From a virus, in the IMG/VR virus record IMGVR_UViG_3300024323_000061, positions 1 through 24,276 of that record: a stretch of 24,276 nucleotides of DNA; one strand, 5' to 3'. Position 1 is the stretch's first letter, and each line of letters starts with the position of its first letter. A program made the position numbers and the translations under genes. Positions 462-18,350 of this stretch are shown here, piece after piece. The notes beneath the pieces were generated by a model, which was given only the letters and a program-made list of their open reading frames with translations, was not told the DNA's origin and searched no databases.

Positions 462-2888
462 TCAAGCTCCGAGCCGCTCAAACGACGACGTAAGGCACGT
501 AATCGTCGGGGCACCCGTAGTGCTGCCCCACAGCGACTCGATTTCCATAGTGTGACTAATTGTTGTATTAAAAGTTGTCAGCGTGTTATTCGGTCCCGTG
601 ACAACCACGATCGAGTTCACCGCAGCTGTCCCCGGGCTGATACCCGCAGCGTTCGCGGAAATCCAGAAAGTCAGCGTCGGGATCACCGTCCCGCCCGTGC
701 CCGTTGTCACCACCGTGATCTCGAACACCGCACGCCAGCACACCGGGGTGCTTATCGCGAACGCGGTAGCCGCGATCCGTCCCACCCCGCCGCCGCCGGT
801 CACGTTCCCCAGGTCAATGCAGCCGATCGACTGGAGAGTCTGCTGCGTTGACCCCCACGTGCCGTACCCCGATGCGGTAAGCCGGTACACAGTGTTGACC
901 TGCGGGTCACCCGCCTGGATGTTCCAGAGATTAGTCAGCTGCGCCTGCGCCGCCTGCGTCACCGTATGCGGTGTCGTGTCCACCTGCGCGGACCCGAGCA
1001 GCCCCGAGTACCCCGACGGGAGACTCACCAGGGGAGTGCCCGCAAGGTTCGCTGACAGCGACGACGTGCCCGCGTTCGCGGACGGCGGCACAGCGGACCC
1101 CACCAGGTTGAACTGCCCCCCGGTGAACCCCGGGCCGAACGTGTACCCGTACGCATCCGTGGAAGACACCGACGCGATAGCCAGGTTCAGTGTCGGCACC
1201 GACGGGTTATAGGAAAGGATGACCTGCCCGTCCGCGCCGTTGCCCGCAGTGACCACAGCGGAACCCGTGTAATAGTTCACCACGATGCGCGGTGACTCGC
1301 CCGCCTCACCCGAGTCGAACGTCCCCCAGTACGCCTGGTTAGTAAGCAGCGACGACGGGATCGGGCCGACCTTCATCGACTTCGCGTTCCCGTTCTGAAG
1401 CGCCGTCCCGATGTTCCCGTTCCGGCCCACGTTGATCGTGGTGACCTTCCCGACCGTGAACGGGCTGATCGTCACCTGCACCGACGTGACCCCCGTCGGG
1501 GCCACCGCACCGAACGCGCCCGCGTTCGAGTAGGACACCTGAGAATGCAGGATCTTCCCGATCGCCACCGACACGGACTTCATGACAACCGACACGGACG
1601 TGACCGTCACCCCGGCCAGGTCAGACTGGATCGTCGCGAACGGCAGCAGGAAATAAGCGAACTGGTTTCCTGCAGCCAGCGTCCCGAAACTGCCCAGGTT
1701 CTGGAACCCGGTGTACATGCCGCCGCCATGCTGCCGCAGCTGGTTCGGGGCCAGCGAATCCGCACCGAAATACGACCAGGTGCCAGTCGTAACATACGTT
1801 TTCGTATGCGAGTTGACCACCGCAGCGCCCGCACCGCCCCCGCCGCCGCCCGGCCCGCCGCCGCCGATGCCGTTCAGGTCAGATGCACCGCCGCCGCCGC
1901 CGACCCCCCCGTTCAGCGGTGCGGCACCCCCCGACCCGCCGGCGTTACCAGCAGACTGGACACCAGGATTACCCTGGTTCGTGGTGCCGCCTGAGGAACC
2001 GCCGCCGTTACCGCCGAACAGGCCCGACCCGTTCGCCCCGTTACCGCCGTCGAAATGAATCGTGTTACTGGACCCTGTGCCGCCAGGACCGCCGGTGAAC
2101 GCGGACCCGCCCGTCGCCCCGTTCGCGAGCACGGTAGTCCCGCCGAACCCGTTCGGCGCGAACGAGGTGTCCCCGCCGTCATTGCCGGACTGCCCGGTGA
2201 TCGCCCCCGCACCGCCCTGACCCACATTGATCACGTAAACAGTGCCGGGATTCACCCCGTACAGCGGCTCTTCCGAGTACTCCCCGCCGCCGCCGCCCTC
2301 ACCGCCCTGGGTGGCTGTCCCCCCCGACCCCCCCGACCCCGCTCCCCATGCCTGCACCCGCAGGGAGTTCACCCCGGTCGGCACAGTCCACAGGTACAGG
2401 CCGTTCGTTGCGAACGTCACAGCGGTGGCACCCTGCGTGTACCCGAGAACCTGCCCGCTGCCGTTCGTCATGGTGTGCACCAGCGACACTGCGGTGCCGC
2501 CGCTGATCACCGGGGTCAGCACGCTCCCGTTCGCCAGGGTGCTGCCCTGCATCAGCGTGGTGGCGTCCATGATCGCGCCGATCAGCGACACCGTGGCCAG
2601 CGTGCCGCCCGCCACGTTCAGCCCGGCCCCGTACGTGTTCCCGAACTGGTCGGTGCCGTCCGCAGCGGCCAGCGAGAAATACAGGTTCCCCGCAGAAGGG
2701 CTGCCTGAATAGCCGAACATGCCGCCGCCGCTGGTCTGCGACGCGAAATTCAGCTGGGAAGTGTTGACAGTCATTCCCCAGGCACCGATGGCATACCCGG
2801 GAATCATGCCCTGCGTGGAATACGGGAGCAGTGACGACGCCTGCGAATACGGGTCGTAAGCCGGGTAAGCCCCGTAAGGTGTTGTCAC
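462..2888 (-). CDS. Glycine-rich minor tail protein with an inserted domain
   Basis: This 808-residue protein starts at GTG 2888-2886, with TAGGAGT overlapping the previous stop. Residues 1-160 resemble N-termini that attach tail appendages. Residues 167-360 begin with a WTVPTGVNSLRVQAWGAG strand and become a long Gly/Ser/Asn/Ala region (for example GGGGPGGGGGGAGAAV), typical of glycine-rich sandwich domains in phage tail fibres and tips. The usual closing strand, VTAGNGADGQVILSYNP, appears only at 546-562. Residues 361-540 form a separate beta-rich domain set inside that fold. Residues 640-808 look like another beta-rich binding domain. Family knowledge suggests a receptor-binding or adhesion role at the tail tip; the host ligand is unknown. 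Confidence 0.8.
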   Translation of the reverse strand: MTTPYGAYPAYDPYSQASSLLPYSTQGMIPGYAIGAWGMTVNTSQLNFASQTSGGGMFGYSGSPSAGNLYFSLAAADGTDQFGNTYGAGLNVAGGTLATVSLIGAIMDATTLMQGSTLANGSVLTPVISGGTAVSLVHTMTNGSGQVLGYTQGATAVTFATNGLYLWTVPTGVNSLRVQAWGAGSGGSGGTATQGGEGGGGGEYSEEPLYGVNPGTVYVINVGQGGAGAITGQSGNDGGDTSFAPNGFGGTTVLANGATGGSAFTGGPGGTGSSNTIHFDGGNGANGSGLFGGNGGGSSGGTTNQGNPGVQSAGNAGGSGGAAPLNGGVGGGGGASDLNGIGGGGPGGGGGGAGAAVVNSHTKTYVTTGTWSYFGADSLAPNQLRQHGGGMYTGFQNLGSFGTLAAGNQFAYFLLPFATIQSDLAGVTVTSVSVVMKSVSVAIGKILHSQVSYSNAGAFGAVAPTGVTSVQVTISPFTVGKVTTINVGRNGNIGTALQNGNAKSMKVGPIPSSLLTNQAYWGTFDSGEAGESPRIVVNYYTGSAVVTAGNGADGQVILSYNPSVPTLNLAIASVSSTDAYGYTFGPGFTGGQFNLVGSAVPPSANAGTSSLSANLAGTPLVSLPSGYSGLLGSAQVDTTPHTVTQAAQAQLTNLWNIQAGDPQVNTVYRLTASGYGTWGSTQQTLQSIGCIDLGNVTGGGGVGRIAATAFAISTPVCWRAVFEITVVTTGTGGTVIPTLTFWISANAAGISPGTAAVNSIVVVTGPNNTLTTFNTTISHTMEIESLWGSTTGAPTITCLTSSFERLGA

Positions 2889-2894
2889 ACACTC

Positions 2895-4712
2895 CTAGTT
2901 ACTCAGCCACAGCAGCTCAAAATGGCTGTTGAAATTGTGGGTGACATCAGTAGTCCATGCGGTGCGCGCCTGAGACTGGTACATCATCGCCGGGGCGATC
3001 GTCTCCCCCTGGTTCAGGTAATAGCAGCCGATCGCGGTAGCGCCCGCCGGCTGGGTGCCCCCCGACACGAGCGGCAGCGACTGATACCAGTCCGGCTGCC
3101 CGTGACTTGTCGCCGGCGACGCGAACCCTCCCGACGTCGGCACGGAGAACCCTGCTGTGATCTGATCCGATGCGCCTGCCCCTGCGGTGACGGAGATTTC
3201 CTCCACTGCCAGGTACCAGCCGGCTACCTGCGCGGTGTACTTGTTGTTCACCGCTGACCAGCCGCCGTAATTGTCTCCTGTTGACCCGTGGACCAGGCCC
3301 CCGACTGCCTGCATCGTGACCGGCACGAACTGGTTCACCGTGCTTGACTGTGCTGTCGACTGATGCACCATCAGGTAGGGGCGGTTCAGGAGAAAGTTCA
3401 GGTCGTTCGCAATTTTAGTATTCATTATCCCGGCAAGCTGGGTAGCTGCCGTGCCGGGCGGGGTCGCAGCCTGGAACTGGAAGCCGGTTACCTCCGGGGG
3501 CACCCAGGTGAGGCCCCCGGAAGTGATCGCGCCCATCCACACCATGTTCCAGTGCGAGGAACTGACCGCAGACAGGATCTGCCCGCCGGTGGACGACTGG
3601 ACGAACGTGGTGATGGTGTCCCCTGCGTTCAGGTCCAGGATTTTCGTGGCTGCCGCACCGTAATACTGGTTCTGCGCTGTGCCGTAGGTGTACCAGCCGC
3701 CGAAATAGTTCGTCGCACCCACCTTGAATCCCGTGGCGAACTGCCCCGGGACACCGCCGTGTTCCAGCACTGTCGTGCAATGGCAGAAGTACAGTCCGCT
3801 TAGCGGCACAACATAGTTCGTGCTCTGGCTGAACCCGCTGAAGTTGTCAATTACCGGGGTGTTGCTGGACCAGTTCAGGGTGGTGAGCGCGGTGCCGAGG
3901 ATGCCGCCCAGCGGAGCCTGGATGCTCATCATCGGCGGGTAGTTCAGCAGCGCGAGAGTCTGCTGGATGGAGGAGTTCAGTGTCCCTGAAGACAGCGGGG
4001 TTGCCGCCCCGATCGACGTGATCGGCGACGGCACCGACCTGATCAGCAGGTTGTTCCCGGACAGGACCCCGCACCAGATTTCCCCCACACGCGGTGTTTC
4101 CCCGCAGGTACTGGTCACGTTCGACCTGACGGTGCCGTTCCTCCCGGTCCCGTCCGTCATCCATGCGCCCACGGTCAGGCCGCCGTCACCTGGGGTGCGC
4201 AGCACCAGGTCCACCGCGAACCCGCAGTTGTCATACACCGCTGAACCCGGCTGAACAGGGCCGATGTCCTGCTGCGCGGTTGTTCCCAGGTACCAGGCGC
4301 TGCCGAACGCAGACCCTGTTGTCTGCGAGAACGGTGACACCGGGACGAAGTTGAAAATCAGGTTCCAGCCGCCCTGCACCCCCGCGATGCCCGCTGACCC
4401 GGGAGCGACCGCGCCTGCTGACCGGAATTTCGCTGCATCCGCCGGGGCATCTGCGCCCACCCCGAACAATGCTGCGTTGTCCAGCACGGAAATGGCACTG
4501 CCGACGGTGCCGCCGAGGATCGTGGTTTTCCCGCCTTTCGGTGCGCCCAGCACCTGCGCGGTGGTGTACGTCTCGACCAGCAGAGGCCGGTTCGAGTGGA
4601 ACAGCACCCCGTTAGCGGCGAAATAGGAACCGTCATACGTGTACATGTCCTGGTTCAGCTGGTGCGCCGTGATAGGCGAGAAAGTCTGCCAGGTAGACGG
4701 TGACAATGGCAT
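2895..4712 (-). CDS. Minor tail protein with three repeated helix plus jelly-roll modules
   Basis: This 605-residue protein starts at ATG 4712, with TAAGGAT upstream overlapping the stop of the giant tail-tip gene. Three short helical segments resemble each other: around 16-50 (HQLNQDMYTYDGSY, then NRPLLVETYTTAQ), 245-270 (LNSSIQQTLALLNYPP), and 425-456 (LAGIMNTKIANDLNFLLNRP, then VHQSTAQ). Each is followed by a beta-rich segment. The segments at about 275-397 and 460-603 have the look of C1q/TNF-like jelly rolls (for example YVVPLSGLYFCHC with a later LNAGDTITTFVQ, and YTAQVAGWYLAVEE with LNQGETIAPAMM). It is probably a trimeric tail-tip protein that binds the host surface. The jelly-roll assignment is by pattern only. 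Confidence 0.75.
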   Translation of the reverse strand: MPLSPSTWQTFSPITAHQLNQDMYTYDGSYFAANGVLFHSNRPLLVETYTTAQVLGAPKGGKTTILGGTVGSAISVLDNAALFGVGADAPADAAKFRSAGAVAPGSAGIAGVQGGWNLIFNFVPVSPFSQTTGSAFGSAWYLGTTAQQDIGPVQPGSAVYDNCGFAVDLVLRTPGDGGLTVGAWMTDGTGRNGTVRSNVTSTCGETPRVGEIWCGVLSGNNLLIRSVPSPITSIGAATPLSSGTLNSSIQQTLALLNYPPMMSIQAPLGGILGTALTTLNWSSNTPVIDNFSGFSQSTNYVVPLSGLYFCHCTTVLEHGGVPGQFATGFKVGATNYFGGWYTYGTAQNQYYGAAATKILDLNAGDTITTFVQSSTGGQILSAVSSSHWNMVWMGAITSGGLTWVPPEVTGFQFQAATPPGTAATQLAGIMNTKIANDLNFLLNRPYLMVHQSTAQSSTVNQFVPVTMQAVGGLVHGSTGDNYGGWSAVNNKYTAQVAGWYLAVEEISVTAGAGASDQITAGFSVPTSGGFASPATSHGQPDWYQSLPLVSGGTQPAGATAIGCYYLNQGETIAPAMMYQSQARTAWTTDVTHNFNSHFELLWLSN

Positions 4713-4722
4713 TCTTTTATCC

Positions 4723-7700
4723 TTACCAGCTCAGGGACTGAGTGCCCGGCGTGTTCTGCCCCGACTGATCCGCGATCAGCGCCTGGTTTTCCGGGTAAAC
4801 CGGGGAAATCTGGTACTTCGTCGTCCACTGTGACGGGCCGATATCATGCTGGATTTCCTGGATTGCCCCTGTCACGCTGAGAACTGCCCCGCCCACCGGA
4901 CGGCGGTTCACCGTGACTGTCTGGTTCAGTTCCAGCCCGAGAATTGTCGGGAACAGCGTCGGGAACTTGCCCTGCCCCGCAGCCACGTTAATGGACAGCA
5001 CCTGACTGCGCTGCACCGGCTGCTGGTACTTCGCAACCGACCAGTTCACCACGTCATTGACGTCAAACGGGGTCAGCGCGAACGACTGGATTTCCAGCCC
5101 GGACCTGTTGAAGTAATTCGTCTGGCTGGTATGGTCTGCCACCTGATAGAAAAATGTCTGGTCCGGGCCACGGTTCTGCGTCGCGTTCACCGTGTTGTAG
5201 ATGAACGAGTTGTCCACGGAGAACGTGGAATCCTGCATGAGCGGCAGTTCCGTTGTCCCGTTGTCCCCGAATGTGGCAACCACCGGCTGGTTGTACCGCG
5301 CCCAGCGGATGACATAGACAAGACTGCCGTTCGCCTGGGTGAAACAGCGTCCGCCTTCCGTCTGCGTAAGCTGCTGCATGACATCCGCGCCAGTGCTGCC
5401 CTCATAGGAGTACGCCTCAGACATGAACGTGTTCTCAACGGTCCCGTAAGTGCCGTACCAGGCGGTACCGCCCCGCTTCAGGCCCAGCAGCCCCCATGTG
5501 AGCACCTGCGCGAACCTGCCCGGCGCGGGAATGTACCCTGACCCGTAGAACCCGGACGCGAAATGGTTGCTGATCTGCGCTGGGGTCAGCTCATACGGGT
5601 AGATGGCAAGATGCCCGGCCGCGAAGTTGAAACCGTTGTAAACGCACAGGTCAGACACGTCATAGGAGAACCGGGCGGGTCCCAGGGTGATCGCGCGGAT
5701 CAGCGGGTGCGTCGCGATCCCGTTGCTGACCCCCACCCCCACCCCGTTCAGGTAACAGGACAGCGACTGCGCGTACAGGCCAGTCGGCCCGGACACCAGC
5801 ACGAAATGCTGCGGTGCGAACGTGTTCTGATTGAAGTGGAGCGCCGCGCCGATCTCCGTGCCGTTAACGTACAGGCCGGTTGCCTTGGCTGTGTTCGACC
5901 CGGTGTTGATCCCGACGGTGATCACCCCGCCGACCGTGCCGATCTGCGGGGCAGCCGCGAAGAAACTGGACGGTCCCGCCCACGCGTTCAGCAGCGTGGT
6001 AGACGCCAGTGTCGTACCGCCCCAGGTGAACCAGAACTCCAGTGTCATCCCGGTTGTGTTCGTCGGGATGTTCGGATCGAAGTAGAACATGCCGGGACCG
6101 TTAGTGTTGGTTTCCGGGGCAATGTACGTTGAGGCACCCATCACCGTGTCACTGTCGCCCAGCAGGTTCAGCGCCTGCCCTGTCGTCGCCGGCTGGTCAC
6201 TGCCGTCCCGGTACGCGCCGACCCGGTTGTTGCCCGGAGCCTTGTTCACCGCGATCAGCCCGTTAGCGTCAAGCGGGGCCTTGATCGGGTCCAGCGACTG
6301 GGTGGTGAAACTGTACTGCTCATCCGTCGCGAAGTACGCGTACGGGGAATCTTTCCGGATGTCCCCTTCCACGGCGGAAGACAGGGAGGTGCTCGCCAGC
6401 GGCCCGTAGGCGTCCGTGGCGACCAGCGTGGAGAATCCCCACTGCGGCATGTCCGGCCATTCCTGCGGCCACCGTTCCACGTACCCGAACGCGACCGGGT
6501 ACTGGGTGCCGTTCCACCAGGCTGTCACCCGCACCGGCACGTTCGGGACAACGCAGTTAGTTGACACCAGGTTCGATCCGTTCAGGATCGCGCACTCATC
6601 TACGTAGAAGACAGTGGCAGCGGAAGGCAGGCCGGACAGCTTGGCGTCCACCCGGGCGAAGACAGCTGTTGACGGGGCCTGGGTGTTCACCAGCGTAACC
6701 TGCGTCCACACGCCGGCCGGGACGGACTTGCTGGCAGAAGTCGTGGAAATGAAAACCTGGCTGGCGTTGTACCAGTCAACGGAAACCTGTGTTGTGCTCC
6801 ACCCGAGCGGGATGTACACCCAGAATGAGGCGGTGACGATCCCGCTGTTCAGCCGGATCAGCTGCGAGCTGATGAACGGGTTGCTCGTCACCCCGTCCGG
6901 GGTCACCTGCATGGAAGTCGTGCCGCTGTGCGCGAACGCGGTTGACGGTGCCATGACGGAGTTGTTGTTCGCCGTCCACCCGGTGGTGCCCAGCCCGAAG
7001 CTCATGTTCGGGTTCAGCGCGTTGCTCCAGTACGGGCTCGCAGTATTGCCGTACGTGAACGCGCCGTCATGATTGTCCAGGGTGAGGGTCAGCTCCCCGG
7101 TTTCCTCCTGGGAAATCTCGTACTGCCGGCCACGGGTGATCTTGATGCGTCCCTGGCCCTTGTCCCCGATGACCCGCGTGGAAATGTCCGTCCACGTCAG
7201 CCCTGTGATGTCCCAGGTGTAGTCAACGCTTTGCGTCCAGTCTCCCGGCGTGGCCCCGAACGCGGCCTCCACCGTGACCAGGGGATAGTTCGGGTTCGTC
7301 TGAAGCGGTGCCGCCGCAGTCAGCTTCAGGCCCACGATAAGACCCGACGCCGGCACTGTGTTCGCCCATGTAGGAGCGAACGGGACACCCCCGGCGGCAT
7401 TGTTCGGGATGTACATCGAATAGGTGGTGGCCTGCGCGGACAGCGCCCCGCCCGCCGCCGCGATCCCCGACCAGCCGGACGGCACCGTCAGCGCACCGCC
7501 GCCGCCGCCCGTGGAAAGCACCCCGAACACAAGGTCGCTTGTCGTGGCTGTCCCCGCAGGGATCGTCAGGGCGGCAACCCCCGCCGTGGATACCGTGGTC
7601 TGCACGAAGTCGATCACCGGCGTACCGAAGCTGCCCGGCAGGTTGTGGACTTCAGCGATGGTGTACGAGGTGGCGTAAGCCCACCCGGTGAGCGCCACCG

Positions 7701-10700
7701 AAACCCAGGACACCTGACGGGGATTGTCGCAGAACCAGATGCTGCTGCGGGACACCCCCTGCGCCGGGGTGATCCCGATCTGCCGCCACAAGTTCCCCGC
7801 AGAGTCCGACACGTTCACCGCAGGAGCCTTGCCAGGGGCGGTGGCAGCGGAGAACGGGGACACGTTCCAGCCGATGAACGCGACCAGGCCCGTTGTCGTG
7901 CCGGTGCTGCTGATCGTGTACGGGACGTCATCCAGCCCGTAATCGTTGATCACGTTCCCGGACACGAAACTGTACACGAACGGCTGCGCCCCGGTAGCGG
8001 CCCGCCCGGACAGTGCCAGCGGCTGCATCACGTACGTGCCGGTGGCGGTTTCCGAGGTGAGCCGGTCCGCAGCGTTCGAACTGAACATGAACGGCTGGAT
8101 GCCCATGCTGCCTGACGATGACTTCCCGGCCGGGCCGAGGAAGTTCGACGGGGACAGTGCGATGTCATCCATGTACATCAGCGGCTGGGACGGGTGGCTG
8201 TGCGTCCACCCGAACTCAACCTCAGCGACACCGCCGGTGCCACCCCAGGCGCTTGTCGCGTCAGTGTGCGACTCGATCACGCTGAGACTGTCACCCGCAT
8301 AGTAGCTGATGGTGAACGACCCGTTACCTGCCGTGCCTGCCAGCAGGTACCACTCGATCCGGTACCAGGTATTGGTGGACAGGGCCGTGGTGAACGTGAA
8401 GATCGTCGTGAAGCTGGGATTCTGGAGAACCAGGTGACCGCCCGTGTCGATCTGGATGTTCCCCGCATTAGATGCGCTGGTGCCGCGCAGCTGAACGTTC
8501 GCGTCCACCACCGCCGGCAAGCCCGTCAGGTAAACGTAAACACGCCCGTACGATGTCAGCGTCGCGGGAATCGTGGTCCACCCGACGAAAGCGGTGCCGC
8601 TGCCTGCCGTGGTAGACGCCGCCATCGCCAGGGAACCGTGCGCCGCCTGCGTTGAGGAGAACGTCAGCGACCCGTTCGCCACCGTCGCCACGTCGAACGC
8701 ACGCCCGGAAGCACCCCCGGAGTTCCCTGTGGTGATCGTGGTGGTGTTGGTGCCGCCCTCGAACGTGTTGTAGTAAAACGTGTTCGTGTCGGTAGCTGAG
8801 TTGCTGGTGGAAAACGCGGGGGTCTGCAGCACCAGCGCGCCGGTCACCGGATGCCCCGCCGGACCCATGTACCCGGTCGTGGACAAGCCCAGGTCATCCA
8901 TGTACATAACATGCTGGTTGGCGAGCGCCGTGTTCCACCCGAACGAAACCTGGCTGATCGCCGCACCCACCCCGTACGGGCCTGAGGTGTCAGTGAACGT
9001 GGCCGTGATCGTGGTGGAGTCCATCGACAGGTAATAGTTCACGGTCAGCGATGCGGTGCCGGTAGGCCCGCAGACCACCTGCCATTCAACCCGGAACCAT
9101 GAGCCGACCGGGACCGTCACCCCGACGCTGCTCCTGCCGCCTGAGGTGTTCTGCGTCATCAGCGCCCCGGCAGCGGTGATCATGACCCCGCCGCCGAACG
9201 CGCCGTTGCTCAGGAACTGGACAACAGTGTCATCTGAGGTCGGCCATGCGGTCATGAAGATGTAAGCACGCCCGTACACCACAGTCTGGTAGCCCAGCTG
9301 AGTGGACCAGAACACATTGCAGAGACCCGCATTGAATGTGGTGAACGCGATCATCGACGTGCCGTGCGCCGACTGCGAGAAGTACCCGGGGAAGATAAGC
9401 CCGTTCGGGTTCGGGTCCTGTATCGTCGTAACCCCGTCGAACGCGTTCGTGACAGCGGTCCCTGACAGGGCAACAGTCACCGTCTGCCCGCCGGCAGGGG
9501 GAGTTATGTCACAGTTGTTCACCAGGAACGCTGCGCTTGACGCAGGACCCGGGTACCCCTGAAGGTTCACGTTCAGGCCGCCGAGGTACACCGCCGGCTG
9601 GCTCGCGTGGTTGCTGGTGCGCCCGTAGTTGATCGTGTTGATGCTGCCGCCGGACCCGAACGCGCCTGCGGTGTCGATAACTGACTGGGTGATCGTCACC
9701 GAGTCCGCAGATGAGTAGTAGTTCAGGTTCAGCGACGCTGCCCCCGCACTGCCGCACACCAGCTTGAACTCAACCCGCGTCCACTGGTTCAACGGCAGGA
9801 TCGGGCCGCCGCCGACCTCACCCGACGATGCGTTCTGCGTGCGGAGCTGACCGCTGGTCGCGATCATCACCCCGCCGCCGAACGTACCCGAGTTGCGGAA
9901 CTCGACAATGTTGTCGTCCGCAGCAGGGTACGCCTGCATGTACACGTACACGCGACCGTAAATCGTCGTCTGCGACCCCAGTGATGCCGCCCAGGTAACC
10001 ATCGCCACCCCGGCCACGCCGGATGTGGTGAACGCGCCGGACAGTCCCGAGTGGATCGCTGCCACATTCGAGTAGACGGCGGTGGCGCTGTTCGTGGTGG
10101 TAACCGAGTCGAACGCGTTCTCCCCGACACCGCCGCCGGAGTTGCCCGTGGTGATGCCGGTGCCGTTGGTGCCCTCGTTGAAGTCGTTTGACAGCAGCGT
10201 CGTGGTTCCCGGCCCCCCGGACGGGGAGATCACCCACGTGAACGACGCACGGCCGGCAGCAGAAGTCCCGTCCGTGGCTGTCACTGTGCAGTTGAACGTC
10301 CCCGCGACAGTCGGGGTGCCGGAGATGAGGCCGCTGGAAGCGTTGATCGACAGAGACGTCGGCAGCCCGGAGGATGTCCAGGTGAAAGTCTGCCCGGAAG
10401 CGGAGTCCGTCGCTGTCATCTGCAACGATGCGGCGGTGCTCACCACCCCGGTCTGCGACCCGGGATTCGCTACCGTGACAGTGTTGCCGGAGGCAGGGTT
10501 GATCGTCCACGTGAACGAGGTGGACCCCGCAGCTGAGGTGGTGTCCGTCGCGGTGATCGTGGGAGTGTAAACACCCTGGGTGGTGGGGGTGCCGGTGATC
10601 TGCCCGGTGGTGGAGCTGATGGACAGGCCGGTGGGCAGGCCGTTAGAAGAATAGGTGAGGGTCTGCCCTGCTGCGGAGTCCGTGGCGTTGATCTGAAGCG

Positions 10701-12066
10701 TCGCGATAGCCGACCCGGCTGTGCTCGACTGGGAACCCGGGTTGGTGACGGTGACAGTGTTGCCGGTCTGCCCGTTCGGGAACACATCGATGCTGACCGC
10801 AGTGTTCGCAGGGACCGTGTAGGAAATCGTCCCGCCGGAGAACCCTGCGTTGTGCACATCCTCCGTGATGGCACCGGGCGGGTTACCCGCGTTCTGCGTC
10901 TTCCAGACGTTGTACGTGCCGCTGGTGACCCCGCCGGTCAGCGTGATGCCGATGGAGAGCGCCTGGCTGGACCCGGACTTGTTGACGATGACGATCTTGT
11001 TGCTGTCCGACGCGTAAACGGACAGCGTGCCGAAAGCCAGCGTCGTGGAAGCGGACACGAAATGCGCGCCGTACTTCTTGAACTGGCCGTTCATCCCGCA
11101 CCAGATGCCGAGACCCCAGTATGCCGGGAATTTCGTGTACTTCCCGCCAGGCATGTTGTTCTGGTTGGAACCGTCATTCATCATGCCGAGCGCGCCGTTG
11201 GCGTCCGAGTACATCGTCGCGTGCCCGCCGGCGCTCAGCGCCATCCCGATGTTGTCAGCGATGAAACACGTGTTAGTAGCCGAGTAAAACGTGTTGTCAT
11301 TGTTGTAGGACGAATGCCAGTTGAATTCCTCAATGCCATAGTGAATGCCAGCCTTGTAACTAGGCATGTCATTCTTCATGTGGTTGTACAGCTGCCGCCC
11401 GGTCGGGTACGCGGAACCCGTCGAGTCGTCAGTGTTCGCCCCGTCGTACGCGTGGTAGGACATCGTGCCGATATTGGCTACGCCTGCCGACCACTGCAAA
11501 AGCGGCGCATCCCAGTGTCCCGCAGTCGGGATGCCGATGTTGATCGTCGGATCAGCCGTGTGCATCGCCGCGAGCGTTGCCGACGCTGATCCCTGACCGC
11601 TGCCGGACTGGTAAATGCCGGTGCCGCCGCTGAACTCCGGCTCATTCCCGATCGACCAGTACTGAATGCGCCCGCCATGCTGACCGCCGTTGTCATTGAA
11701 AAAATGAACAAGCGACCCGCCGTCAGCAGGCTGGAAGTTATTGTCCGCCGTGTTCCCGTTGAATGACACCAGCGGGATCGCGCCCATGTTCTTCACCGCG
11801 TTCAGTAGCCCGCTGGCCGCGCTCCCCCCGGAGCCCTGCTGTCCGGGGCTGCCGCCCGCACCGTAACTCGGATTGCCGTTGTACCAGGCCAGCGAGAAAC
11901 GAATGTGCCCCACCCCGAGCGCCGCCAGCGCCGCATTCCATGTGTTATCGCTGACAATGGCGACAATTCCGCCGTTGTTAAGGAACTCTGAACACACGAA
12001 ACCCGCCCCTAGCGGGTCCGTCGTCGCGACGTTCTGCGTGAAGTTGACAGTGACGTTATTCGCCAT
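4723..12066 (-). CDS. Giant tail-tip/hub protein: glycoside hydrolase, Ig-like and lectin-like modules fused to a tail-hub core
   Basis: This 2447-residue protein starts at ATG 12066 with AGGAT upstream. Residues 1-340 look like a clan-A TIM-barrel glycoside hydrolase, GH39/GH5-like: YWSIGNEPEF supplies the acid/base candidate E142, and GIEEFNWHSSY the nucleophile candidate E247 (or E246). A beta-sandwich follows at 340-432. Two putative-Ig (He_PIG-like) repeats lie at 436-525 and 528-615 (GLPTGLSI, GLPTSLSI). Three related concanavalin-like modules lie at about 621-845, 848-1070 and 1092-1315, each with GRVYVYM/GRAYIFM-type strands. A distinct beta domain covers 1368-1583. Residues 1590-1680 and 2180-2447 resemble the hub-type minor tail protein of actinobacteriophages. 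Between them lie a CBM4/9-like jelly roll (1681-1832) and a LamG-like domain (1990-2160). It probably acts at the tail tip, binding and cutting a surface polysaccharide. Domain names rest on pattern recognition; substrate unknown. Confidence 0.85.
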   Translation of the reverse strand: MANNVTVNFTQNVATTDPLGAGFVCSEFLNNGGIVAIVSDNTWNAALAALGVGHIRFSLAWYNGNPSYGAGGSPGQQGSGGSAASGLLNAVKNMGAIPLVSFNGNTADNNFQPADGGSLVHFFNDNGGQHGGRIQYWSIGNEPEFSGGTGIYQSGSGQGSASATLAAMHTADPTINIGIPTAGHWDAPLLQWSAGVANIGTMSYHAYDGANTDDSTGSAYPTGRQLYNHMKNDMPSYKAGIHYGIEEFNWHSSYNNDNTFYSATNTCFIADNIGMALSAGGHATMYSDANGALGMMNDGSNQNNMPGGKYTKFPAYWGLGIWCGMNGQFKKYGAHFVSASTTLAFGTLSVYASDSNKIVIVNKSGSSQALSIGITLTGGVTSGTYNVWKTQNAGNPPGAITEDVHNAGFSGGTISYTVPANTAVSIDVFPNGQTGNTVTVTNPGSQSSTAGSAIATLQINATDSAAGQTLTYSSNGLPTGLSISSTTGQITGTPTTQGVYTPTITATDTTSAAGSTSFTWTINPASGNTVTVANPGSQTGVVSTAASLQMTATDSASGQTFTWTSSGLPTSLSINASSGLISGTPTVAGTFNCTVTATDGTSAAGRASFTWVISPSGGPGTTTLLSNDFNEGTNGTGITTGNSGGGVGENAFDSVTTTNSATAVYSNVAAIHSGLSGAFTTSGVAGVAMVTWAASLGSQTTIYGRVYVYMQAYPAADDNIVEFRNSGTFGGGVMIATSGQLRTQNASSGEVGGGPILPLNQWTRVEFKLVCGSAGAASLNLNYYSSADSVTITQSVIDTAGAFGSGGSINTINYGRTSNHASQPAVYLGGLNVNLQGYPGPASSAAFLVNNCDITPPAGGQTVTVALSGTAVTNAFDGVTTIQDPNPNGLIFPGYFSQSAHGTSMIAFTTFNAGLCNVFWSTQLGYQTVVYGRAYIFMTAWPTSDDTVVQFLSNGAFGGGVMITAAGALMTQNTSGGRSSVGVTVPVGSWFRVEWQVVCGPTGTASLTVNYYLSMDSTTITATFTDTSGPYGVGAAISQVSFGWNTALANQHVMYMDDLGLSTTGYMGPAGHPVTGALVLQTPAFSTSNSATDTNTFYYNTFEGGTNTTTITTGNSGGASGRAFDVATVANGSLTFSSTQAAHGSLAMAASTTAGSGTAFVGWTTIPATLTSYGRVYVYLTGLPAVVDANVQLRGTSASNAGNIQIDTGGHLVLQNPSFTTIFTFTTALSTNTWYRIEWYLLAGTAGNGSFTISYYAGDSLSVIESHTDATSAWGGTGGVAEVEFGWTHSHPSQPLMYMDDIALSPSNFLGPAGKSSSGSMGIQPFMFSSNAADRLTSETATGTYVMQPLALSGRAATGAQPFVYSFVSGNVINDYGLDDVPYTISSTGTTTGLVAFIGWNVSPFSAATAPGKAPAVNVSDSAGNLWRQIGITPAQGVSRSSIWFCDNPRQVSWVSVALTGWAYATSYTIAEVHNLPGSFGTPVIDFVQTTVSTAGVAALTIPAGTATTSDLVFGVLSTGGGGGALTVPSGWSGIAAAGGALSAQATTYSMYIPNNAAGGVPFAPTWANTVPASGLIVGLKLTAAAPLQTNPNYPLVTVEAAFGATPGDWTQSVDYTWDITGLTWTDISTRVIGDKGQGRIKITRGRQYEISQEETGELTLTLDNHDGAFTYGNTASPYWSNALNPNMSFGLGTTGWTANNNSVMAPSTAFAHSGTTSMQVTPDGVTSNPFISSQLIRLNSGIVTASFWVYIPLGWSTTQVSVDWYNASQVFISTTSASKSVPAGVWTQVTLVNTQAPSTAVFARVDAKLSGLPSAATVFYVDECAILNGSNLVSTNCVVPNVPVRVTAWWNGTQYPVAFGYVERWPQEWPDMPQWGFSTLVATDAYGPLASTSLSSAVEGDIRKDSPYAYFATDEQYSFTTQSLDPIKAPLDANGLIAVNKAPGNNRVGAYRDGSDQPATTGQALNLLGDSDTVMGASTYIAPETNTNGPGMFYFDPNIPTNTTGMTLEFWFTWGGTTLASTTLLNAWAGPSSFFAAAPQIGTVGGVITVGINTGSNTAKATGLYVNGTEIGAALHFNQNTFAPQHFVLVSGPTGLYAQSLSCYLNGVGVGVSNGIATHPLIRAITLGPARFSYDVSDLCVYNGFNFAAGHLAIYPYELTPAQISNHFASGFYGSGYIPAPGRFAQVLTWGLLGLKRGGTAWYGTYGTVENTFMSEAYSYEGSTGADVMQQLTQTEGGRCFTQANGSLVYVIRWARYNQPVVATFGDNGTTELPLMQDSTFSVDNSFIYNTVNATQNRGPDQTFFYQVADHTSQTNYFNRSGLEIQSFALTPFDVNDVVNWSVAKYQQPVQRSQVLSINVAAGQGKFPTLFPTILGLELNQTVTVNRRPVGGAVLSVTGAIQEIQHDIGPSQWTTKYQISPVYPENQALIADQSGQNTPGTQSLSW

Positions 12067-12082
12067 TACGCGATCCTAAAGA

Positions 12083-12487
12083 TTACGGCTGAGCCTGGGT
12101 CACGACGAAAGAGGAAACCGAAACGGTGTCGCCAGCGGAAATTGATGTCGTGTTGAAGTTCAGCTCAGCAGCGGACGTAGCGCATGCACCCGTGGAAACC
12201 ACTGTCGCGTTATCCGACTTGAACAACGCGAAATAGCCGGCGGTGCCGGTCGCGCCTGCGGTCGCCGCAGTGATCGTGTTCGCTGTCATCGACCCGCCTG
12301 ACCCGGCTGCACCCGCAGTCTGGAAAGCGGTAGCGCTCATCGACAGGGACGCCAGCAGCGTCCCCGTCACCCCTGCGTCCACAGCAGGCTGCGCACCCGT
12401 GTAAACCTTCAGGAACCCTGAATTCATCAGCGCCCCGTAAGCATTCAGCGCAGTCGTGATCCCGGTATCGTAAATATGCGAAGTCAT
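12083..12487 (-). CDS. Small virion protein between tape measure and tail-tip protein
   Basis: This 134-residue protein starts at ATG 12487, nine bases after the tape measure stop, with GGAGAGAGA between them as ribosome binding site. It begins MTSHIYDTGITTALNAYGAL and is rich in Ala, Gly, Thr and Ser with alternating beta-strand patterns (LKVYTGAQPAVDAG, YFALFKSDNATVV). Actinobacteriophages and related siphoviruses commonly encode small beta-rich virion proteins of this kind near the tape measure or hub genes. Its exact place in the tail is not readable from sequence. Confidence is high that it is a gene and low on its role. Confidence 0.7.
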   Translation of the reverse strand: MTSHIYDTGITTALNAYGALMNSGFLKVYTGAQPAVDAGVTGTLLASLSMSATAFQTAGAAGSGGSMTANTITAATAGATGTAGYFALFKSDNATVVSTGACATSAAELNFNTTSISAGDTVSVSSFVVTQAQP

Positions 12488-12496
12488 TCTCTCTCC

Positions 12497-15400
12497 TTAA
12501 AGCGGGCTCCAGCCGCCGTTAACACGCCCGCTGTTGCGCAAGTTATAACGAACGGTCTGCACCTGCAGGCGGTCCCACAGGTTGTCCATGGCAAGGTCAC
12601 CATGCAGGTGCACCTCAACACCGCCATTGCCCCCGGCACCCGGAGGAGTGACCATTTCCGGTTTCCCGGTGCCGTTATAGGCAAGCGTCAGCCCTGGCAT
12701 CAGGTAACCGCCGCTGTCATAGCCGATGTACTTCCCGCCCCTGTCAAGGCTCAGGATGCCGGGAACGTTGAACACCGTCCCGTACCGCGCCTCGATATAC
12801 CGGATAGCCGCAGCGATGTTCGCAACCGGATCGTAAATATTGAAACTGGTCCCCGCCTGGTGATTCCCCAGGAACGTGCTCATGATGACCTGCATGATCC
12901 CGCGAGACGGATCTCCGGCAGCAGCATTAGAGTCGGACAGGTTAATCGCGTTCGGGTTCTGCCCTGACTCATAGAAAGCAATGGTCAGCAGGTCAGGCAG
13001 CCAGGACTGCGGGACACCCGTCAGCGACATTGCCTTAGCCATCCATGCCATCACTGACCCTGACGGATGCCCCGGAACTGAAATCCCGTTCGCTACCGCC
13101 TGCGCCTGGGACACCTGGTTCTTGAAGAAGGAAACCACTGACTTCATCTCAGCGGCCATCGCTTGTGAAACGAAATTAGATGCGTTGTACGCGGTGAATT
13201 CCTCCGGTCCCGCAGGACCCACGAACCCGCCCGCAGCGAACCCCGGAACGCCCTTGCTGCGCATCAGCGGCGCGACCATGTTCGTCAGGTGCTTCGGCAC
13301 CACTGTCTCCCCGGGTTCCAGCAGCGCCGGCACTGAGTCCCCGCCTCCGAAGCCGGGAATCCGGCCGCCTCTCGCCATTCCCGCGAAGTGCAGCAGCGCG
13401 TTCTTCTGCCCCGCAGGGATCGCCAGTCCCGCGATCGTCGCGACGACACCGCCCGAACCGCTGGCATGCGCGGTGATGTTCGTGTTCACGTTCTTCGGCA
13501 CATGCGACAGTGCGGGAATCAGGTTGTTCCAGATCTGCGCGGCGAGATGCTCCGTCTTCCCCTTCGCGTCATCGAAATTGTTGCTCAAGTGGTGCACCGG
13601 AGGCTCAGTCTGGCTGAACGCGCCGGTCAGTTCCTGCTCAATCTGCTTGACCTCAACAGCCTTGAACCCGTAATGCTCCAGCGCCTTGGTCAGCGCATCC
13701 TGGGCGCTCTGCGTCTGCGGTGCCTTCGCCCCGTACTGGGACAGCGCATTCGTGTAGTTCTGCGTCAGGCCCGTGATGTTCGACGTGGATATCCCCGCCT
13801 GCGCGATGGCGTTCAGCACATCCGTCTGGAGCGTGGACGCGAACGTCCGTGCCACCTGCGTCACGTTCGACAGTTTCTGGGTGAGCGAGTCGATCATCCC
13901 GGAGAACTTGTCCGATGACGTGGCGTTCTTGTCCACCCAGTCTTTCAGCGCCTGGAACCCGCCGACAGCAGGCCCGCCTGCCTCCTGCGCCAGCGCGGAC
14001 ACCTCCGCCAGCGCCGCCTTCGACTTCGACGCGTACGGCAGCAGCTCCGCGACCACCGTCGCGACCGCCTCCGTGTACTGCTTCTGCGACAGCACCCCCG
14101 CCACCGATGCGACACGGAAATTGTCAAGCAGCGTGTTCGCCTGGGTGACAGACTGGTTGAATGACTGCCAGATCTGCGCGGACGACCCGCTGAACTTCGT
14201 CAGCGCCTGCGCGATCTGGCTGACAGTCAGCTGAGTGCCCTGCGCTGTCGTGGAGAACGCCGCGATCTTCCCGCCGACGGTCGGCGCGATGTTGCCGAGC
14301 TGCTGGAAGTCCAGCAGCAGCTGCGAGTAAGCGCCGGTGAGGCTGGTGGACAGGCCGATGAAGTAATCCCAGGCGCTGTTCACCTTCCCCACCTGGGAAG
14401 CCTGAATGCCAGCCTGCACATTGAGCGCGTTGATCGTGTTGTTCAGCGCACCGCCGGTCAGGTCCATCTTCTGGTAGCCGAGGAGCAGCGCCTGAATCTG
14501 GAGCTGCGCTTGCTGCGCCGCCTTCGACTGGCCGACGAACCCGTTGACCAGCTTCACCCCGGCCATGTCCGCCAGTGCCAGCGCATTCGCGTACGTCACG
14601 TGGTACGTCTTCGCGATGGCGTCAGCACCCTGGATGACAGTGAAGTTCTGGGTAGCGAGCTTCTGCTGCTCGTTCGTCAGTTCCTCCACAGCGCCGCGAG
14701 CCTGGTTGACTGCCGAAGTGTGGAGTGCCATGCGGGCTGTGCCGGTCAGCATTTCAGTCGAAACGCTCCTCGTGGCGGTGCTCAGGTTCCGCTGGGCACC
14801 CGCGAGCGCGTTCGATGTTTCCGCCATGCCCTGGGAGATACGGTTCATCACCGTCAGGTTGGTCGCGGCGGTGACCGCACTGTTAATGCTGCTGACCAGC
14901 TGGTCAGTGGCGTTCTTAGTGTGCATCATCCAGATAGCGAGAGCTGTCAGGCCCAGCACGCCCAGAGCAATCGCAGCACCCCACGGGCCGGACATGAAGT
15001 CAGCTGCCGCACCCAGCGCACCGACCATCTTCGTGGCCGCCGCATCCGTCTTGGCACCCAGCACGCCGATCTTCTCGCCCATCGCGACGAAGTTGATGAT
15101 CGCGCTGCCAACGCCGGTGATGATGTTCGCGACCATCATCCCGAAGTTCATCCCGATCTTCGCGAACACCGGGATGCCCAGCGTCCCGACCAGGGCAATA
15201 GCCCGTCCGATCATTGAGAAGATCCCCGCGAGCACCCCGGACCAGCGGTACAGCTCCTCAATCACCATGATCACGTAAATCAGCGCCGGGGGCAGCTGGG
15301 ACACCCACTTGATCAGCTGGGTGAACATGTCGATCAGCCGCAGCACGATCTCCGCAGCACCCGGCATCGCCGCCGCGAAGTTAAGGATCGCATGCCCCAG

Positions 15401-16615
15401 GTTCCCGAAGATCTGCCCGAACTCACGCAGGTCCGTCATTGAATTCGCCAGCAGGCTGTTCAGCGCACCCATGTTGCTGGACAGCTCAACAACAACCTTC
15501 GCGCCGAACTGGTCCAGCATGTGCGTAACATCCAGGCCCAGCTGAGCGAACGGGGAAAGCCCCTGGGAGTTCAGCTTCCCCATCGCCGCGTTAGCACCGA
15601 GGATCGCCTCGCCGAGCAGCTCGTACGCACCCGGGTTCGCCATGTTCTGCGCAAGCTGAAGCGAATGCCCCAACCCCAGCACATCACCGGCCGTCTTCCC
15701 GAAAATGCCGCCCATCGCCTCAGTGGCCGTCTTCACGGCGACGATCTGCGGGACAACTTTCTCCGCAAGCCCCTGGTAAAGCACCGCCGCTGCGGCCCCG
15801 GCTGCGTACATGGCAGGGATGAACACGGCCAGGAACTCGAACACGCCCATTACGATCAAGTGCAGCGCCTGCGCGGACAACCCGAAGATGACCGCCGCGC
15901 CGCCCATCCCGAACGCGGCAGCTCCCGTCGGGATGACCATCGCGCCTATGGAACTGCCAGCCTGCTTTGCCGCTGTGGCCAGGGCAAGCATCGCGAGACC
16001 GCCGCCGTCCGACGCCCGCTTCACTTCCCCGACAACGCCGGGCATGTCCTTGAGGACGCCTTTCTGCCACTCCAGGGTTTCCCCCGCCGCACGGGTACGG
16101 GCAGCCATGGCCAGTTCAGACTCGCCCATCCTGGCGATGACGTCATCGATCTCCGCCATCGCAGCTTCTTCTTCTCGCAGCTGCGAGGCGTACACCCCTG
16201 CCTGCCTGCCCGCATCTGCCTCCGCACGGGCAATGTCTTCCAGCTCCAGGCCCATCGCGTAGATAGCCTCAGCGACCCGGTTCGCATCCCTGATCTGCCC
16301 CGCAGTTGCAGTACGCAGTTCCGTCTGCGCCGCAGCTGCATCCCGCGCAGCTTCCGCCTCAGCGTGAAGCGCACGACTGATCCGGATAATCTCATCAGCT
16401 GCGTCAGAGCCCCCGCCGGCGGTCGTCACCGTTTCCACAACCTGCTGCACCGAAGCGACGTCCGGGGCGTTACCCTCAGTCGTAATCCGGTAAATAACAT
16501 TGACGACCTTGGTGTCAGGAAGAGAGTTGATCGCGGTGCGCAGCTCAGCGATCCTGTCAATGTCTTCCCGGATCGCCGAAGCGAGACGATCAGCCTGGTC
16601 AATCATCTCCTGCAA
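12497..16615 (-). CDS. Tape measure protein with C-terminal lytic transglycosylase domain
   Basis: The protein has 1372 residues from TTG 16615. At about 0.15 nm per residue this predicts a tail near 200 nm. The N-terminus is alpha-helical and coiled coil. Hydrophobic stretches lie at about 215-300, 440-515 and 545-567, as in tape measures that insert in the host membrane. Residues 1189-1290 form an SLT-type lysozyme fold: FYESGQNPNAI with catalytic Glu candidate E1216, GDPSRGIMQVIMSTF, and NIYDPVANIAAAIRYIEARYG. This would open peptidoglycan during DNA entry. The start is doubtful: the TTG has no good ribosome binding site, and the frame stays open upstream to the TGA of the previous gene at 16693-16691 with coding-like sequence (SESFDADASGFLSALQ), but no ATG, GTG or TTG. 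The true start may be a rare codon, or a sequence error may hide it. Confidence 0.92.
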   Translation of the reverse strand: MQEMIDQADRLASAIREDIDRIAELRTAINSLPDTKVVNVIYRITTEGNAPDVASVQQVVETVTTAGGGSDAADEIIRISRALHAEAEAARDAAAAQTELRTATAGQIRDANRVAEAIYAMGLELEDIARAEADAGRQAGVYASQLREEEAAMAEIDDVIARMGESELAMAARTRAAGETLEWQKGVLKDMPGVVGEVKRASDGGGLAMLALATAAKQAGSSIGAMVIPTGAAAFGMGGAAVIFGLSAQALHLIVMGVFEFLAVFIPAMYAAGAAAAVLYQGLAEKVVPQIVAVKTATEAMGGIFGKTAGDVLGLGHSLQLAQNMANPGAYELLGEAILGANAAMGKLNSQGLSPFAQLGLDVTHMLDQFGAKVVVELSSNMGALNSLLANSMTDLREFGQIFGNLGHAILNFAAAMPGAAEIVLRLIDMFTQLIKWVSQLPPALIYVIMVIEELYRWSGVLAGIFSMIGRAIALVGTLGIPVFAKIGMNFGMMVANIITGVGSAIINFVAMGEKIGVLGAKTDAAATKMVGALGAAADFMSGPWGAAIALGVLGLTALAIWMMHTKNATDQLVSSINSAVTAATNLTVMNRISQGMAETSNALAGAQRNLSTATRSVSTEMLTGTARMALHTSAVNQARGAVEELTNEQQKLATQNFTVIQGADAIAKTYHVTYANALALADMAGVKLVNGFVGQSKAAQQAQLQIQALLLGYQKMDLTGGALNNTINALNVQAGIQASQVGKVNSAWDYFIGLSTSLTGAYSQLLLDFQQLGNIAPTVGGKIAAFSTTAQGTQLTVSQIAQALTKFSGSSAQIWQSFNQSVTQANTLLDNFRVASVAGVLSQKQYTEAVATVVAELLPYASKSKAALAEVSALAQEAGGPAVGGFQALKDWVDKNATSSDKFSGMIDSLTQKLSNVTQVARTFASTLQTDVLNAIAQAGISTSNITGLTQNYTNALSQYGAKAPQTQSAQDALTKALEHYGFKAVEVKQIEQELTGAFSQTEPPVHHLSNNFDDAKGKTEHLAAQIWNNLIPALSHVPKNVNTNITAHASGSGGVVATIAGLAIPAGQKNALLHFAGMARGGRIPGFGGGDSVPALLEPGETVVPKHLTNMVAPLMRSKGVPGFAAGGFVGPAGPEEFTAYNASNFVSQAMAAEMKSVVSFFKNQVSQAQAVANGISVPGHPSGSVMAWMAKAMSLTGVPQSWLPDLLTIAFYESGQNPNAINLSDSNAAAGDPSRGIMQVIMSTFLGNHQAGTSFNIYDPVANIAAAIRYIEARYGTVFNVPGILSLDRGGKYIGYDSGGYLMPGLTLAYNGTGKPEMVTPPGAGGNGGVEVHLHGDLAMDNLWDRLQVQTVRYNLRNSGRVNGGWSPL

Positions 16616-17213: not shown

Positions 17214-18350
17214 TCAGCGACGCGACATCCGGGACAGAAGCTCCTCCACAGCTGGCCCCATATGCTCCACAGCCACCTTATCCACATCATATTCACGGGC
17301 GAACTGCCGCAGCTTCCCCGGCTTCACATCCGCCCGCGCAGCATACGCATCCTCATACGCCTGCACCAGCCCCGGCACAGCCGGACGAGTCCACCAGCCC
17401 TTATGCACCCCGTTCCAGAACGGTTCCCCGTCCACCTGAATCCCCAGCGGATTCAGCTCCTCCATCGAAGAGCAGCGGGTAGTGATAACCGGGCAGCCAG
17501 CCGCCTGCGCCTCCATGATCGGCAACCCGAAACCCTCACCATAGGACGCAGCGGAAAGCACATCGATAACGTTGTACCACTCATTCAGATCCTGCTGGCT
17601 GATCTGCCCCGCCGTATACCTGTACTGATCGACAACCCGCACCTTATCCAGGATGCCGATGTTCTCCGCGAGCGCCTCAAGATCCTGCCCCCCATCCTGA
17701 TGCACCCCAGAATGAAGAGTCATGATCGCATCAGGATGATTCCTCGCGAACTTCGCAAAAGCCAGCATCTGCTCCGGGAGAGCCTTACGGATCGCATCAT
17801 TATTCGCACCATTGATACCGATCACGAACTGATCATCATCAATACCGCATGACTCACGCAGCTTGTCCCGGTCCGGCAGCCACCGGAACACCGTCGTGTC
17901 AATCGCATGCGGAACATACACCGAGTCATAACCCGCCTGCCGGAAATTACGCTGCCCGAACTGGCTCATCGCGATCAGCTGAGCCCCCGAAGCATCCACC
18001 ACCATCCGGTCAGCCAGCGACATCGGCCTGCAATCCGACGGCAGCCAGTGCGCAATCGGCAGCTCCCGCAGAATATTCGGGTCCATCACCCACACATCAC
18101 CCAAAGTGATGATGAGATCCGGCTTCACCATCAGCGCATGCTGCCCCAGAGACGTAGAACAGTACGCATTCCCGAACCCCGGGTACACCGGAATCCCGTT
18201 CCACTGGGTAGCACCCCCCTGAATCCCCCAGTACGAGGAAATCGATACCTCATGCCCCATCTCTTTCAGCTTCGTCGTCCATATCGCCGTCTGAGTACCG
18301 TACCCCGACGGAGCCCACGGGCTGCAAGAATGCCAGAGAATACGAGCCAT
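17214..18350 (-). CDS. GT4-type (group 1) glycosyltransferase
   Basis: This 378-residue protein starts at ATG 18350. It has the GT-B layout of retaining family 4 enzymes. The N-terminal Rossmann half (MARILWHSCSPWAPSGYGTQ) has a Gly-rich loop near residues 15-20. A linker PHAIDTTVF lies at 147-155. The C-terminal nucleotide-sugar half has GINGANNDAIRKALP (178-192) and the EX7E-type motif EGFGLPIME (E272 and E280) followed by AAGCPVITT. Enzymes of this family transfer a sugar from an activated donor to protein, lipid or glycan. It lies between the tail chaperones and the tape measure, so the likely target is a virion protein or a host surface glycan, but that is inference. No signal peptide or membrane segment is evident, so it should act in the cytoplasm. 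Confidence 0.9.
   Translation of the reverse strand: MARILWHSCSPWAPSGYGTQTAIWTTKLKEMGHEVSISSYWGIQGGATQWNGIPVYPGFGNAYCSTSLGQHALMVKPDLIITLGDVWVMDPNILRELPIAHWLPSDCRPMSLADRMVVDASGAQLIAMSQFGQRNFRQAGYDSVYVPHAIDTTVFRWLPDRDKLRESCGIDDDQFVIGINGANNDAIRKALPEQMLAFAKFARNHPDAIMTLHSGVHQDGGQDLEALAENIGILDKVRVVDQYRYTAGQISQQDLNEWYNVIDVLSAASYGEGFGLPIMEAQAAGCPVITTRCSSMEELNPLGIQVDGEPFWNGVHKGWWTRPAVPGLVQAYEDAYAARADVKPGKLRQFAREYDVDKVAVEHMGPAVEELLSRMSRR

Follow-up and report, generated by a model that had tools for sequence, protein, structure and literature searches.

Tail-mounted enzymes, hub-fused lysins and one hub-fused glycosidase, that of phage PSA, are already known. The Tal protein of this listerial phage ends in a glycosidase domain (PMC7291167), and in the majority (86.7%) of enterococcal prophage genomes the Tal position was reported to be occupied by an endopeptidase (PMC10194240). 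In solved mycobacteriophage structures, the hubs are trimeric (PMC13033339, PMC13252515). Glycosidases are also reported from soil viromes, where they were interpreted as auxiliary genes (PMC6172770). The initial annotation of the locus described below assumed that depolymerase and hub usually reside on separate phage proteins. This premise is only partly right and is unsupported in that form, because in siphophages of Gram-positive bacteria a hydrolase is often found on the Tal/hub chain itself, the PSA glycosidase and the enterococcal endopeptidases being examples.

The window, by which we mean the whole 24,276-base record of an uncultivated virus analysed here, contains a gene for a single chain with a predicted glycosidase domain at its N-terminus and a modelled baseplate hub at its C-terminus (Table 1). 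Like the Tal hubs of Gram-positive siphophages (PMC7291167, PMC10194240), this protein combines a hub fold and a predicted surface-polymer hydrolase on one chain, and its gene lies just after that of the tape measure. In contrast to the Tal hubs, its enzyme is N-terminal and, in place of a peptidase or lysin, is related to GH39/GH51, no separate Dit-sized gene precedes the hub, and approximately 1,150 residues of modules separate the enzyme from the hub. With a predicted enzyme and a hub in one frame, the gene places a predicted hydrolase domain on a tail protein, one of the two features by which tail-associated lysins are recognized, the other being degradation of a host envelope polymer. The evolved Dit and Tal proteins (PMC7291167) resemble it in having CBM-type domains in loops of the baseplate core, whereas the inserts in the window are CBM22-like and LamG-like and share their protein with a predicted glycosidase. 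The tail protein of Thermobifida phage P1312, likewise encoded by a tail gene of an actinophage, starts with an enzyme domain and has a CBM_4_9-like part that resembles the hub insert of the window; compared by these parts only, it differs in that its enzyme is a PhoD-like phosphatase instead of a glycosidase. The window domain shares with GH39 and GH51 glycosidases a homologous barrel sequence, an acid/base and a nucleophile in register, and a beta-sandwich after the barrel, but it falls below every family cut-off and belongs to a predicted virion protein. A literature search for hub-fused GH39/GH51 enzymes found no description, which does not prove that none exists. What appears to be new is that a GH39/GH51-related enzyme stands at the N-terminus of a hub, that related hubs differ by having gained or lost it, and that another tail protein carries it next to a GH12 domain.

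Table 1. Features of the hub gene, its neighbours and the compared loci. Positions are those of the window unless a locus is named.
Feature	Position	Strand	Basis
Whole gene, 2447 aa (enzyme, modules and baseplate hub)	4723..12066	-	One open frame, ATG start
Predicted clan GH-A glycosidase domain, GH39/GH51-related, residues 1-430 (barrel ~1-335, beta-sandwich ~336-430)	10777..12066	-	Homology via Embleya/Nonomuraea proteins; profile against PDB
E142, predicted acid/base (IGNEP)	11641..11643	-	Aligned with E172 of PDB 3s2c; unchanged in the two bacterial homologs and all four viral copies
E247, predicted nucleophile (EEFNW)	11326..11328	-	Aligned with E281 of PDB 3s2c; Glu in four viral copies
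Two Ig-like (He_PIG) repeats, residues 433-616	10219..10770	-	Pfam PF05345, E 5e-26, two stretches
Three related ConA/Cip1-like repeats and linkers, residues 617-1372	7951..10218	-	Mutual identity 36-41%; weak Cip1-like and PDB 3zyp matches
Domain preceding hub, residues 1373-1589 (~220 residues)	7300..7950	-	Aligned with L007 counterpart, 54%
Modelled baseplate hub, residues 1590-2447	4726..7299	-	phrog_5313; model pLDDT 78.5; Foldseek to lambda, T5, MuSo2 and injection-system tail proteins
CBM22-like insert in hub loop, residues ~1683-1838	6553..7020	-	Profile match to xylanase CBM22 structures, 1e-6; Foldseek CBM22/CBM16
LamG/pentraxin-like insert, residues ~1964-2156 (approximate borders)	5599..6177	-	Profile match to pentraxin structures, 2e-7; beta strands in model
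Virion structural protein, 134 aa, between tape measure and hub	12083..12487	-	phrog_3758, 9e-21
Tape measure protein with C-terminal transglycosylase-like (SLT) domain	12497..16615	-	PHROGs tape measure families; Pfam SLT 1.6e-8
GH12, GH-A and ConA-like repeat protein of L088, 848 aa	L088:7296-9839		GH12 Pfam 2.9e-22
Second GH-A-like domain	L008:8075-9070; L026 hub protein residues 213-545		Motifs
Thermobifida phage P1312 tail protein (L010), annotated phosphodiesterase	L010:7174-10464		N-terminal PhoD-like phosphatase, Pfam 4e-14

An AGGA stretch was found a few bases upstream of the ATG of the hub gene. The same 2447-aa frame occurs in two further IMG/VR contigs (L002 and L003), whose enzyme domain and hub are 100% identical to those of the window, and the domain order is kept in two divergent viruses, L006 (59% identity in the enzyme domain and 76% in the hub) and L011, equivalent to L017 (57% and 62%, respectively). 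A chance fusion during assembly was therefore ruled out. The hub gene was placed in a tail operon because the tape measure gene stands next door; the 134-aa gene follows the tape measure gene and precedes the hub gene, and no gene of Dit size, which a Tal-type hub gene would be expected to follow, lies between the two.

Residues 1590-2447 match a PHROGs family of unknown function, and a scan for relatives of the hub yielded 72 viral loci. The hub was modelled from an alignment of 43 sequences, and the model was compared with PDB using Foldseek. Chains of the lambda tail tip, the T5-type tail tip, MuSo2 (3cdd) and contractile injection system baseplates were matched with E-values of 1e-8 to 1e-6, the whole-chain TM values being low because of the inserts and the flexibility of the protein. 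Comparison of the same model with BFVD gave actinophage minor tail proteins. On the basis of the model, this part of the protein is a baseplate hub of the gp27-like/Tal type. The CBM22-like insert is absent from L006, L007 and L008, and the stretch of the CBM-type insert is largely filled in approximately 26 of the 43 hubs, so that the insert was rejected as a novelty of the window virus. Its loop is an insertion site: another small domain (WSFTVAGTP...) occupies it in L011, and none is present there in L006. A small domain similar to the L011 loop domain was seen at the C-terminus of L006.

The region between the enzyme and the hub begins with the Ig-like repeats, and each of the ConA/Cip1-like repeats that follow is approximately 220 residues long. 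Ten copies of the latter repeat weakly resemble the Cip1/polysaccharide-lyase-like core (Pfam E of 2.8e-5 for the best member, among the relatives; profile E of 0.26 against PDB 3zyp). Stretches similar to residues 1373-1589, a putative jelly roll according to the initial annotation, begin many relatives of the hub. The initial annotation had read the gene as a single 2447-residue frame with a clan-A glycosidase, two Ig-like repeats (He_PIG, located here at residues ~438-615), three related concanavalin-like modules, a LamG-like domain and a hub-type C-terminus. The frame is real and lies on the minus strand, and all of these parts were recovered, whereas the CBM22-like insert in the hub had been missed.

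Families GH39 and GH51 belong to clan GH-A and comprise beta-xylosidases and alpha-L-arabinofuranosidases. The clan (4/7 superfamily) is marked by a (beta/alpha)8 barrel in which two glutamates lie near each other, an Asn-Glu pair ending strand 4 and a Glu ending strand 7. Residues 1-430 alone gave no Pfam match up to E 10, and the window domain fell below the curated GH39 cut-off (PF01229). Single-sequence searches with the domain gave nothing decisive, with weak GH1 and GH51 matches in PDB at best, and scans of genome contigs found no relative; Klotho was no more than a weak GH1 match. On the other hand, the domain matched a protein with a signal-peptide-like start encoded on an Embleya megaplasmid (tblastn E 2e-7), and a Nonomuraea protein was found as a second homolog, the bacterial family covered here comprising these two members. 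The Embleya homolog scored above the Pfam GH39 cut-off and was similar to GH39 xylosidase structures (2e-7). A profile made from the two bacterial proteins only covered window residues 4-424 with an E-value of 1.8e-19 (scaled to the PDB set), and the same profile gave no match to reversed and shuffled copies. In the hmmsearch with this two-sequence profile, the window and L088 were listed and L006 and L011 were absent; the enzyme domains of L006 and L011 were tied to the Nonomuraea protein by blastp (1.6e-18 and 1.7e-12, respectively). A six-sequence profile searched against PDB matched GH51 arabinofuranosidases (2-3e-10) and GH39 enzymes (~1e-6), and its C-terminal sandwich matched 3fw6 and 3ii1, which are called 'Cellulase' (1.8e-8). 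Through the secreted Embleya and Nonomuraea homologs, residues 1-430 are predicted to be a clan GH-A glycosidase domain, and on the same searches the window domain is not filed under GH39.

An AlphaFold2 model of the enzyme domain, made from only three sequences, reached a pLDDT of 39. When this model was searched with Foldseek, most of the matches were sandwich-bearing enzymes of clan GH-A (GH30, GH44 and GH79 first), but with TM values of ~0.25. Because of the low pLDDT of the direct model, both the barrel and the spacing of the two glutamates are deduced from homology. In the six-sequence profile and the GH51 alignment, N141-E142 and E247 are in register with residues 172 and 281 of 3s2c, which we take to be the acid/base and the nucleophile of that GH51 enzyme. 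The motif NEP corresponds to N141-E142-P143 and EEFNW to residues 246-250. Across the four viral copies, which are only ~60% identical, Asn141, Glu142 and Glu247 do not vary, and H205 and Y207 are conserved as well. The proline of the first motif is replaced in L006 and L011 (GNEA in place of GNEP). The positions of both motifs and the pair E142/E247 agree with the initial annotation, whereas E246, which it had offered as another candidate nucleophile, was ruled out, since GEFN in the Nonomuraea protein and DEWN in 3s2c both put the catalytic Glu at position 247; MAFFT sets the Nonomuraea Glu one residue off.

The distribution of the enzyme was followed in a motif scan of the hub proteins with long N-termini. 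Among the hub proteins of the 72-locus scan, this enzyme was found in three distinct ones, and a second N-terminal domain, with WQEP/WHEP and FETG/GEWN motifs, was found in two (L008 and L026). The two copies of the second domain are related to each other (6e-16); they showed no detectable relation to the window enzyme and no Pfam match, and their GH-A nature is therefore a motif-level assignment. In the hub tree, the window pairs with L006, and L017 pairs with L007, whose hub protein has neither the enzyme nor any ConA-like repeat. On this tree, the enzyme was either gained once and lost once or gained twice. The same enzyme domain is found in L088 (62-64% identity with that of the window), where it lies behind the GH12 domain on a separate tail-region protein, and the next large gene starts with a ConA-like repeat followed by a hub-like start. 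These comparisons mark the enzyme as an exchangeable module that related hubs have acquired or lost.

Taken together, the gene product is probably the baseplate hub of a siphovirus-type tail, to whose N-terminus a retaining clan GH-A glycosidase (GH39/GH51-related) is joined by Ig-like, ConA/Cip1-like and further beta-rich modules. In this protein, E142 would act as the acid/base and E247 as the nucleophile. The enzyme would be carried by the virion at the baseplate, in three copies if the hub is trimeric as in solved hubs. There the hub would seal the tail and make contact with the cell, and with the enzyme on the hub chain every particle would be equipped with a polysaccharide cutter. The particle may be anchored to a surface polysaccharide by the modules together with the CBM and LamG inserts, so that the enzyme can trim this polymer, and the tape-measure transglycosylase would act afterwards on peptidoglycan. 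The polysaccharide is probably that of an actinobacterial host, since the cellular relatives of the enzyme occur in Embleya and Nonomuraea and the named relatives of the hub are phages of Streptomyces, Actinoplanes and Thermobifida. It is improbable that the GH-A domain has ceased to cut and persists as a glycan-binding, lectin-like remnant on an adhesion arm. Such a pseudo-enzyme would fit the location of the domain among binding-type modules, the variable proline after the acid/base, and the dispensability of the domain seen in L007. It is at odds with the invariance of the catalytic residues across divergent viral copies, and also with the dN/dS of ~0.24 for the enzyme domain between the window and L006, a rough value because dS is 1.5.

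It is also unlikely that the enzyme and the binding modules work on environmental or plant polysaccharides, for anchoring in litter or for auxiliary metabolism, instead of on a host surface glycan. All of the relatives are of the plant-biomass type (GH39, GH51, GH12, CBM22 and Cip1-like), and the auxiliary-gene interpretation of soil-virome glycosidases (PMC6172770) points the same way; nevertheless, the domain belongs to a structural hub protein in a tail operon, so it would be expected to end up in virions and not to leave the host cell as a secreted protein. A cut of the chain after translation, which would leave enzyme and hub separate in the virion, has a parallel in L088, where the same domain types are on two genes, but we consider it very unlikely, given that three distinct viruses retain the fusion and that domain scans of the neighbouring proteins gave no protease domain. 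A virion-borne, hub-fused glycosidase is the preferred reading of the gene.

In that reading, a baseplate hub takes up whole glycosidase domains at its N-terminus, which are gained or lost between related viruses. The locus provides a concrete case for asking whether glycosidases of environmental viromes, which are frequently interpreted as auxiliary metabolic genes (PMC6172770), may instead take part in host entry. An unstudied glycan of the cell surface, probably actinobacterial, is indicated as well, together with an enzyme for probing it. As a tentative and rather speculative extension, these viruses might mount a small, exchangeable kit for degrading polysaccharides, of the plant-biomass type (GH39/51-like, GH12, CBM22-like and Cip1-like), both on the tail hub and next to it. 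Its target would be a glycan of actinobacterial cells that resembles cellulose or hemicellulose, in which case some of the 'carbon-cycling auxiliary' glycosidases of soil viromes would be infection machinery.

Further genes of the window were noted. A 378-aa glycosyltransferase (window 17214-18350, minus strand; phrog_2170, 1e-31) is encoded inside the operon just before a neck-like gene and the tape measure gene, and similar-looking frames are found at the corresponding site of L007 and L011. Its role may be the glycosylation of virion proteins. After the hub, two large proteins of 808 and 605 aa are encoded on the minus strand (window 462-2888 and 2895-4712). One of them has a Pfam glycine-rich domain (1e-8), and both are probably tail fibre or adhesion proteins of unknown family.
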